Assembly (NCBI GenBank): GCA_027488975.1
Contig: JAIYAQ010000006.1
Coordinates: 1 to 64,000, forward strand
Source of the DNA: Cyanobium sp. E1_MAG_00006
GTDB taxonomy: Bacteria; Cyanobacteriota; Cyanobacteriia; PCC-6307; Cyanobiaceae
DNA length: 64,000 nt
Direction: 5' to 3'
Shown here in pieces: positions 4,497 to 6,067 of this stretch. The position numbers and the translations under genes are program-made. Position 1 is the stretch's first letter. Each line of letters begins with the position of its first letter. The notes beneath the pieces are model-generated. The model was given only the letters and a program-made list of their open reading frames with translations, was not told the origin of the DNA and did not search any database.

Positions 4497-4568
4497 GCCC
4501 GGTTAGCTCAGCGGTAGAGCGCCTGCCTTACAAGCAGGATGTCGCTGGTTCGAAACCGGCACCGGGCA
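4497..4568 (+). tRNA. tRNA-Val (anticodon TAC)
   Basis: A complete 72-base cloverleaf. The acceptor arm GCCCGGT (4497-4503) pairs with ACCGGGC (4561-4567), with discriminator A at 4568 and no encoded CCA. The D arm is AGCTCAGCGGTAGAGC. The anticodon stem is CCTGC/GCAGG with loop CTTACAA, giving anticodon TAC. The T arm is CTGGTTCGAAACCGG. The part from 4525 onward is repeated, with three mismatches, at 6022-6067, so this gene looks like the target of a past site-specific integration. Confidence 0.96.
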
Positions 4569-4638
4569 TCTCTAGAAGCCAAACCGAATCTGGGTTCTGA
4601 GCCAGTCAGAGTCTGGGTTCCGGCTGCGAGGTCTCATG

Positions 4639-4694
4639 GCGTGAGGTCCGCCAGGACCCTTGCGAATCCGTCGGCACCTGCCAGGACCTCACGC
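4639..4694. repeat. Inverted repeat with 11-base perfect arms next to tRNA-Val
   Basis: GCGTGAGGTCC (4639-4649) and its exact reverse complement GGACCTCACGC (4684-4694) enclose 34 bases. There is no T-tract, so it is not a standard intrinsic terminator. It lies 70 bases past the tRNA, inside the segment bounded by the tRNA and its partial copy. TCACGCAGATTTC starting at 4689 recurs at 5945-5957. It may be a recombinase arm site, an operator or RNA structure; the sequence does not decide. Confidence 0.6.
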
Positions 4695-4871
4695 AGATTT
4701 CCGCGCAGGGCTCATGGCGCTGGATCGCCCGCAGTGGTTGGCCGACCTGAGCAGGGGCTTCGTCTCTCCCTGCAGTTATCTATTGGTAATGGTAGTACTT
4801 CCAAAATCAGCCTAATCTGCAAAAGGAGTTGCAACTGTTTAGGCAGGTGCCCGCATCCTGGCTGCCACCCA

Positions 4872-5588
4872 ATGAAGACTGACCCTATGGGGGAATCCCG
4901 CGCTGGCCAAATGCCGCTCTCTGCCCGGATCGGCATGGGATCTCGACTGCATCGACCGATCCGTGAAGCCTTGCCCTTTCTGTTGGTACTGGTCTTCACC
5001 CTGGCAGCCATGGGTGGGATCAACCTGGCCCTGCATGAACGTGCTCCCACCCCCCTGCAGCAGTTCAACCAAAGCTTGGTTTGGTTGATTTATCTGGCCG
5101 CATGGATTCTTCTGCTTTTTTGCACGGCAGCAGCAGTCGCGCAGCGTGAAATCGCCATGCGGCGAGAATGCAACGCATTAGCGATGATGCTCTCTCTGAA
5201 CTTCGCTGCAGACCTGATCAATGTGAATGCTCGGTTTCTCGAAAGCCGCATAGCTGGCACAATTTTGTTTATGCAGGTCGTACTCCTGTTGGCCGCCATG
5301 CTGGCACTCTTTACATTTTTGTATTGGGTCCTTGATCCCCCCAAGCCCACGATGGAGCGGCAGGCATTTTGGTGGGTACCGCCGACAGGAAGTACGGTTC
5401 TCGATCCGCCTTGGCGGCCAGCATTTATCGACTATTTCTATCTATCCACGGTGGTGACGTTCTCATTCTTTCCCAATGTTGAACCCATAAAGCAACGATC
5501 CAAAATATTGGTCATGATCCACTTTTTGGTTGCTTTTGATGTGGATCTGATTTTGTTGGCTCGTGCCGTGGGTCTGCTACCTGGCTAG
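4872..5588 (+). CDS. Membrane protein of unknown family, about four TM segments, lower GC
   Basis: A 238-residue protein not assigned to a family. Hydrophobic segments are ALPFLLVLVFTLAAMGGINLAL (about residues 35-56), LVWLIYLAAWILLLFCTAAAVA (68-89), a pair around TILFMQVVLLLAAMLALFTFLYWVL (130-154), and ILVMIHFLVAFDVDLILLA near the C-terminus. DYFYLSTVVTFSFFPNVEP, just before the last TM, resembles the pore-loop position of two-TM ion channels but lacks the GYG filter. No Shine-Dalgarno is visible before the ATG at 4872; in-frame ATGs a little downstream are alternatives. The codons are visibly more AT-rich than in neighbouring genes. The gene is the only substantial one between tRNA-Val and its partial copy, so it is probably acquired. 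Confidence 0.6.
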   Translation: MKTDPMGESRAGQMPLSARIGMGSRLHRPIREALPFLLVLVFTLAAMGGINLALHERAPTPLQQFNQSLVWLIYLAAWILLLFCTAAAVAQREIAMRRECNALAMMLSLNFAADLINVNARFLESRIAGTILFMQVVLLLAAMLALFTFLYWVLDPPKPTMERQAFWWVPPTGSTVLDPPWRPAFIDYFYLSTVVTFSFFPNVEPIKQRSKILVMIHFLVAFDVDLILLARAVGLLPG

Positions 5589-6021
5589 GCACCACAGCTG
5601 AGCCGCCCGCGCTGCTCGCTCTGCCGCCTCCAGTGCTCCCTCGCATTAACCCGGCCAGCGAGGAGAAGCTTCGGTGCCGGCCCACAGCACTCGGCCATGG
5701 TCGCTGGGGCCCCGCCCCCCCTTCATCCCCTGCCGCCAAGGCTGCATGGCTTGTCCAACTGCTTTTTTGGTCAAAGACCCCTCGCGAGGAATTGGCTGGA
5801 CCAGCCTGATGATCAACCGCAAGCCCACGTACGCCAGCTCGGGCAGCTGGCTGCGTCCTCAGCGAGGTTCGGCCGATGAGCAGTTTGTGATCGACCGCTG
5901 CACCACTCTTCAGCTCTACACAGCGCGAAAGGAGTGGTGGCACTTCACGCAGATTTCACTCGCTGAACGCCCGTCTCCTCAAGACCCGCCGCACTGGAGC
6001 TTGTCTTGGCTGTGCCTTTCC
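5589..6021. other. Non-coding stretch inside the tRNA-bounded segment
   Basis: No convincing gene. Open frames on both strands have compositions unlike real proteins (Pro/Ser/Trp/Arg-rich) and no recognisable motif. It contains the second copy of TCACGCAGATTTC (5945-5957; first copy 4689-4701) and ATTAACCCGGCCAG near 5646, which resembles ATTAAACCCGGCCAG near 6493. These small repeats fit a stretch built by deletions and duplications. Confidence 0.5.
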
Positions 6022-6067
6022 GCCTTGGAAGCAGGATGTCGCTGGTTCGAAACCGGCACCGGACATC
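6022..6067 (+). repeat. Partial tRNA-Val copy (att-like direct repeat)
   Basis: These 46 bases match tRNA-Val positions 4525-4570 with three mismatches: two in the anticodon-loop region (6027-6028) and one at 6063. A 34-base run, 6029-6062, is identical to 4532-4565 and covers the 3' side of the anticodon stem, the variable loop and the T arm. The 5' half of the tRNA is absent, so it cannot be a working tRNA. This is the geometry left when an element integrates into the 3' end of a tRNA gene. No integrase remains between the copies. Confidence 0.85.

Follow-up and report, generated by a model that had tools for sequence, protein, structure and literature searches.

Positions 4571-6067 of the window, by which we mean the whole stretch of 64,000 nucleotides analysed here, are very probably what is left of a tyrosine-integrase element: internally deleted, truncated in its integrase gene, bearing cargo, and best described as a CIME-like remnant. 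It would be a mobile element that lost its interior and came to hold genes matching another genus instead, and its ends can be mapped nearly to the base (Table 1). The window is contig C39 of genome G000 (2.70 Mb in 40 contigs, 99.98% complete); other genomes are likewise given by G numbers and their contigs by C numbers.

Table 1. Features of the tRNA-Val locus and its insert, in window coordinates
Feature	Position	Strand	Evidence
tRNA-Val(TAC), intact, integration target	4497-4568	+	ARAGORN; Rfam RF00005, 71 bits
Left attachment core: tRNA 3' half common to 6022-6067	4525-4570	+	43/46 identity; compare the tRNA-Arg half in IMG/VR contigs
Conserved left end of the element family	4574-4761	+	74% to G282 over ~190 bp, E 2e-26
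Left tandem arm-type sites (putative), CCTCACGC and TTTCCGCG, 11 bp apart, +117 from tRNA end	4687-4705	+	
5' stump of integrase gene, codons 1-16, MALDRPQWLADLSRGF	4714-4761	+	Alignments to full-length relatives
Junction between integrase stump and cargo	4762-4785	.	Left-end homology ends at 4761; cargo homology begins at 4786
Intact gene for a 238-aa membrane protein (membrane by sequence reading)	4872-5588	+	Genes in two other genera are 87-91% identical (aa)
Flavin amine-oxidase 3' remnant, last ~65 codons, frame-broken, adjoining the membrane gene	5580-5775	-	tblastn with G127 oxidase aa 414-478, E 1e-14
Stretch without a seen relative; presumed rest of the element's right part	5776-5942	.	
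Right tandem arm-type sites (putative), CTTCACGC and TTTCACTC, 11 bp apart, ~75 bp before attR	5943-5961	+	
Conserved right end of the element	5944-6067	+	74% to G078:C11:382078-382201
attR: displaced 3' half of tRNA-Val	6022-6067	+	43/46 match to 4525-4570
Chromosomal flank, close behind the tRNA in empty-site G004	6081-6481	.	91.5% over 401 bp to G004:C42:1737-2137

The two copies of the tRNA 3' half agree at 43 of 46 positions, whereas the runner-up place in the window reaches 25/46 and the best match in 200 mononucleotide shuffles of the window does not exceed 31/46. An earlier note on this DNA had described a 46-base repeat of tRNA-Val with three mismatches, a 34-base exact run inside it, and a duplication limited to the 3' side, and each of these is present as described. 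The copy comprises the 3' half alone, in the same orientation as tRNA-Val(TAC), which is the sole tRNA that ARAGORN calls in the window.

Comparison within the genus covered the locus in 18 of 24 relatives. G002, G010 and G017 were left out, the tRNA of G002 and G017 being next to the end of a contig, and G003, G009 and G021 have no match at the tRNA-Val locus. The upstream flank is common to all 18 loci, and no part of 4571-5943 finds a match at E <= 1e-6 in any of them, 17 being informative because the G012 contig stops 80 bp past the tRNA. The same 1.5 kb in all relatives, the outcome by which the earlier note would have had its reading fall, is therefore not what the genus presents. The empty tRNA-Val site that it suggested looking for does exist: in the closest relative found (G004, ~92% over the flanks), contig C42 passes from the tRNA through ~60 unmatched bases to the counterpart of window position 6081 onward.

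Larger islands, also foreseen, occur at the same tRNA in two same-genus relatives, at 8.2 kb (G008) and 17 kb (G023). Both are bounded by a full and a partial tRNA copy, and both carry recombinase genes of other kinds. Among the 24 same-genus relatives, three have the 3' part of tRNA-Val a second time, 1.1 kb (G006), 8.2 kb (G008) and 17 kb (G023) away, and pairs of full and partial tRNA on one contig, within 50 kb of each other, are present in at least 19 genomes, G000 included. The tRNA-Val site is an integration hotspot.

The G008 element (L025 7281-15457) holds genes for AAA_25, a serine recombinase and a GmrSD_C-type protein, together with a divergent 403-aa recombinase that is unrecognised by Pfam; its end repeats are unlike those of the window element. 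The G023 island (L023 8226-20000 and L024 1-7286) has its integrase adjoining attR and encodes a phosphonate-binding protein (PF12974), an AAA_25 protein and a 2-hydroxyacid dehydrogenase, which we take to be phosphite-dehydrogenase-like. The integrases of these islands were considered as parents of the window element and rejected: because they give no significant tblastn match in the insert and the end repeats differ, we treat both islands as independent elements at the same tRNA. A further variable spot lies nearby at 1533-2293 of the window, with two small ORFs that look VapBC-like by eye; it is unmatched in many same-genus loci although the flanks match.

The closest counterparts of the ends come from outside the genus. 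The first ~190 bp of the insert resemble DNA behind tRNA-Val in G282, which belongs to another genus, and parts of them also match G078, G208 and G258. Elements of 5.3 kb (G282) and 8.8 kb (G078) beside tRNA-Val have the same ends as the window insert, and each encodes an AAA_25 protein and a full integrase of ~400 aa whose gene starts ~150 bp past the tRNA. At the right end the match to G282 spans just ~59 bp around the core, and that to G078 amounts to just 74%. A left-end model (R1), built from 21 other left ends with the window excluded, matches 4648-4761 with 54.3 bits (E 6.2e-16) and has no further match in the window or the rest of G000; of the 320 family genomes, 42 have a match at E <= 0.01, the weak matches probably being chance. 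For 5776-5942, no match was seen among the 320 family genomes, with at most two candidates scored per genome.

The conserved left end includes the start of an integrase gene. The earlier note saw no integrase in the insert, which is right as far as a complete gene goes and wrong in that the first codons survive; past codon 16 the frame enters unrelated sequence and then meets a stop. The full-length integrase of G078 starts VALSRPQWLADLSRSF, and a second G078 copy starts MALTRPQWLADLSRSF. Set against an integrase-specified tRNA island, the locus has the intact tRNA with a displaced 3' fragment in the same orientation and the empty site in a close relative (G004:C42); in place of an integrase ORF inside, it has 16 codons.

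Counting as full-length those copies that span at least 395 residues at no less than 55% identity, we find 21 members of this integrase subfamily in 19 of 320 genomes. In 19 cases ARAGORN calls a tRNA alongside (Val in 7, Arg in 12); of the other two, one lies by a tRNA-Val truncated where the contig ends, and the second shows none within the 4 kb read. Within the window's own genus, G013 has a full-length subfamily integrase at tRNA-Arg, with a 3' tRNA copy ~9 kb on. Residues R248, K272, R349, H373 and Y382, presumably the catalytic residues of a tyrosine integrase, are kept in at least 20 of the 21. Pfam recognises the subfamily poorly: four intact members score 13 to 22 bits against PF00589, below the cut-off of 27.1, and the G013 integrase passes marginally (29.6 bits with its neighbours). 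One member matches a PHROGs integrase family (1.7e-8), searches with the G078 integrase found nothing in INPHARED and a single weak match in PLSDB, and comparison with PDB sequences gave no match. The proposed search for an integrase elsewhere in the genome that uses this tRNA came up empty: G000 has three PF00589 matches, none of them inside the insert, and the best subfamily match among 5 of 16 candidates is ~30% identical.

Partial tRNA copies can also arise by segmental duplication of the tRNA 3' end, mobile elements being uninvolved. We regard such an origin as highly improbable for this locus, since its ends match those of elements and include an integrase stump, an empty site exists, and other genera have many pairs of element size at this tRNA.

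Tandem pairs of short sites near both ends are read here as integrase arm sites on the basis of the lambda-type pattern, and such pairs would presumably bind the integrase. We accepted as a pair two 6-mers that differ by no more than one base and lie 11 bp apart. Of 25 left ends, 19 have such a pair at +115 to +119, counted from the end of the tRNA; those that fail are the window, G078, G208:C32, G105, G164 and G264. Pairs in other 5-bp stretches (outside +110 to +124) occur in at most one end, and 500 shuffles gave at most three anywhere, a comparison that is not a formal probability, the left ends being related sequences. Both left sites of the window deviate from the family form. The motif varies by element (TTTCACGC, TTTACCC, TTTGACC) and, by eye, is alike at both ends within G282, G157, G236, G269 and the virus contig L149. 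Right-end pairs 70-75 bp before attR are seen in the window, G282, G078, G157 and G236.

Six of 16 elements (window, G236, G269, G245, G008 and G023) have a best repeat between left and right ends that beats all 40 shuffles, in the window by a margin of one point (27 against 26 for the best shuffle); G282, G078 and G157 fall outside these six, and the best repeat of G236 is a different one. Since the window fails the left criterion and its own repeat stands one point above shuffles, the case for arm sites rests on the comparison across elements. The direct repeat of the insert, given earlier as 13 bases, is present and is in fact 16 nt at 94% (4686-4701 and 5942-5957); it is probably part of the integrase arm sites. 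An 11-nt inverted repeat, also reported earlier, was located at 4639-4649 and 4684-4694.

Between the ends lies the cargo. The low-GC membrane ORF described before is real, with a GC content of 0.53 at 4786-5588 against 0.66 for the window, and the GC dip of the ~1.5-kb insert falls chiefly over this gene. A dN/dS of 0.19-0.23 was obtained for it. The protein has no Pfam, NCBIfam or PHROGs family above cut-off; its C-terminus, in our own estimation and with no Pfam support, resembles DUF1345 or channel-like proteins, and a structure prediction was set aside at a pLDDT of 42. Homologues at E <= 0.001 are present in 47 of 300 family genomes, mostly at 20-35% identity, and a pattern scan of IMG/VR found no relative.

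At the DNA level, identity is 88.5% between 4786-5762 and G127:C63, and 90.6% between 4812-5719 and G140:C97, these being genomes of two other genera in the same family as the window; for comparison, pieces longer than 300 bp from one 6-kb core stretch of the window are 64-82% identical to the same two genomes. A complete oxidase occupies the corresponding place in G127 (PF01593) and G010, and a remnant of it is found in G140. No tRNA was called in the stretches read around the near cargo relatives, and the element ends are absent there. Judged from sequence comparison, this pattern fits uptake from another genus.

Two further observations concern the oxidase. On G127:C63 (L073), phage portal, scaffolding and baseplate-hub-like genes surround the amine oxidase, and another ORF reads by eye as glycogen phosphorylase; the contig may be a prophage or an assembly chimera. 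The ~100 bp at 5635-5738, which eight same-genus relatives also have and of which G000 holds one further copy, were considered as a small mobile repeat or RNA and dismissed: Rfam has no match, and the other G000 copy is the 3' end of an amine-oxidase gene, the remaining copies being assumed alike.

The history that we favour begins with a tyrosine-integrase element whose family is specific for tRNA-Val(TAC) and tRNA-Arg(TCT). It would have integrated within the 3' half of tRNA-Val; the tRNA would thereby have been made whole again, and its former 3' half moved out to 6022-6067. Grounds for this entry are the repeat, the empty site and the ends of related elements, and they bear out the site-specific integration that the earlier note had proposed. 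Later, the integrase gene would have been cut after codon 16, and ~990 bp matching other genera, made up of the membrane gene and the amine-oxidase tail, now stand between the ends; the order and mechanism of the swap are conjectural. A shrunken island and the cargo of a lost element had been offered as descriptions, and both suit an insert that keeps the 5' end of the integrase and whose cargo closely matches other genera. No intermediate, in which the same element has an intact integrase and this cargo, was found. The remaining ends keep the att cores and putative arm-type sites, and to that extent the element is structurally CIME-like and integrase-less. It is probably stranded now, given the drift of its putative left arm sites, the three mismatches in attR and a search of the genome that found no cognate integrase.

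Other genomes also contain small or integrase-broken elements. In G208:C96 (L114 2279-3580), 1.2 kb separate tRNA-Arg(TCT) from its partial 3' copy and contain an integrase with 37 family codons and a stop after 42, one DUF1232 gene and, towards the right, an arm-like pair; behind the tRNA-Arg copy, a further element begins in tandem with its left end. G064:C25 (L144 1340-1665) has a family left end in which an arm-like repeat stands three times in tandem and an integrase ORF runs for 35 codons, behind what looks by eye like a tRNA-Lys-like 3' half (ARAGORN calls no tRNA). G105 has an integrase fragment to about aa 107, and G226, G297 and G190 have left-end matches with no subfamily integrase in the stretch read. 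A 1.2-kb tRNA-Val insert in G170 (L110 1752-3000) carries nucleotidyltransferase and HepT-like genes, a probable toxin-antitoxin pair, with no subfamily integrase or family ends detected; its downstream tRNA-Val copy is also called complete by ARAGORN. Small or integrase-broken elements thus appear to recur, with no sign of movement in that form.

The 1.5-kb form might nevertheless be a trans-mobilised miniature element, excised and integrated by an integrase that another element or a phage supplied, and carrying the membrane gene between genera. Both of its ends keep cores and arm-like sites, G208:C96 provides a second small element, whose genome encodes a full-length subfamily integrase as well, G064:C25 adds a third left end with its 35-codon integrase ORF, and the full-length G013 integrase at tRNA-Arg means that a helper is present in the genus. 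We nonetheless think this unlikely: the form was never seen at two places, the cargo relatives have neither a called tRNA in the stretches fetched nor element ends, the cognate integrase was not found in G000 (5 of 16 candidates), and the left arm sites have drifted. The broader proposition that stumped single-gene elements (the window, G208:C96 and perhaps G064:C25) are recurrent non-autonomous carriers, a MITE counterpart for tyrosine integrases that would be moved in trans by integrases of satellites or temperate cyanophages and would shuttle host genes between picocyanobacterial genera, is one that we hold to be quite doubtful.

A different question is what kind of element was the parent. 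Three IMG/VR contigs carry a subfamily integrase (60% identity) preceded by just the last 46 bases of tRNA-Arg; this half is attP-like, as would be expected of attP, a tandem attR being the alternative. One of the three, 65 kb long, matches a terminase at 22.1 bits (cut-off 22), and a gene that resembles baseplate-wedge families lies within 1 kb, across the core. The subfamily thus appears to serve phage-like and island-like elements alike. The insert could accordingly be a shrunken prophage, its parent having been a temperate phage and not a satellite or an island, as the 65-kb contig with its subfamily integrase and attP-like core would suggest. We place limited credence in such a parent, although it is compatible with the internally deleted element preferred here. 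No phage gene was found in the insert, whose cargo protein has no PHROGs family and whose tested ORFs have no Pfam family, so that it does not qualify as a prophage remnant; G282 and G078 carry AAA_25/Prim-Pol and an MmeI-type protein, with no phage structural family among the proteins tested against Pfam.

Among known systems, CIMEs come closest. As defined in PMC5704250, these are elements that have lost their integration genes and kept attL and attR, by definition decayed ICEs or IMEs, and tandem accretion beside such remnants is described. The window element likewise keeps attL and attR and has lost its integration genes, and tandem att copies are seen at G208:C96 and G157. CIMEs, however, derive from the decay of conjugative systems, whereas what the related elements carry is AAA_25/Prim-Pol or phage-like genes, and the proteins of relatives that were scanned with Pfam (9 of 10 from same-subfamily elements) yielded neither a relaxase nor a conjugation family. 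We therefore call the element CIME-like rather than a CIME.

Islander marks the ends of tRNA islands precisely by an intact tRNA and a displaced 3' fragment, and rejects candidates that are smaller than 2 kb or have no PF00589 integrase (PMC4383910). The window element shares the intact tRNA and the displaced fragment, and by the rules given there it would be discarded for its size and for want of a PF00589 integrase. Gene transfer via such elements may thus be undercounted, since Islander, for one, discards small or integrase-less elements by rule (PMC4383910). The element also points to a picocyanobacterial integrase subfamily that targets tRNA-Val and tRNA-Arg, has probable tandem arm sites at a constant distance from the tRNA and scores close to the Pfam cut-off.

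In being tRNA-adjacent, tyrosine-recombinase-based, cargo-bearing and picocyanobacterial, the window element is also like the tycheposons. These are reportedly tRNA-adjacent cargo elements of picocyanobacteria that are based on a tyrosine recombinase (Hackl et al. 2023). PMC10872708 describes them as cargo carriers of 4-200 kbp beside tRNA genes, with a tyrosine recombinase. Compared by description, the window element differs in being 1.5 kb long and having its integrase cut, so that it falls outside their combination of size, recombinase and tRNA border.

Two other accounts are relevant. A picocyanobacterial integrase found near tRNA-Phe and tRNA-Cys, often with a serine recombinase (PMC10187409), is similar in being a divergent tyrosine integrase beside tRNA genes, and the G008 element also pairs a divergent with a serine recombinase; compared by description, the targets here differ, being tRNA-Val and tRNA-Arg. 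In marine Prochlorococcus and Synechococcus, a relic prophage and pseudo-tRNA copies occur at tRNA-Met (PMC2784084), so that there too partial tRNA copies mark old integration at a picocyanobacterial tRNA; again by description, that case involves another tRNA and transposases. Among the papers listed by a literature search, mainly beyond subscription journals, none concerned a picocyanobacterial tRNA-Val or tRNA-Arg element of this kind. To these systems the present element adds an integrase stump, matching ends, probable arm sites, phage attP-like relatives, and a cargo with relatives in other genera.
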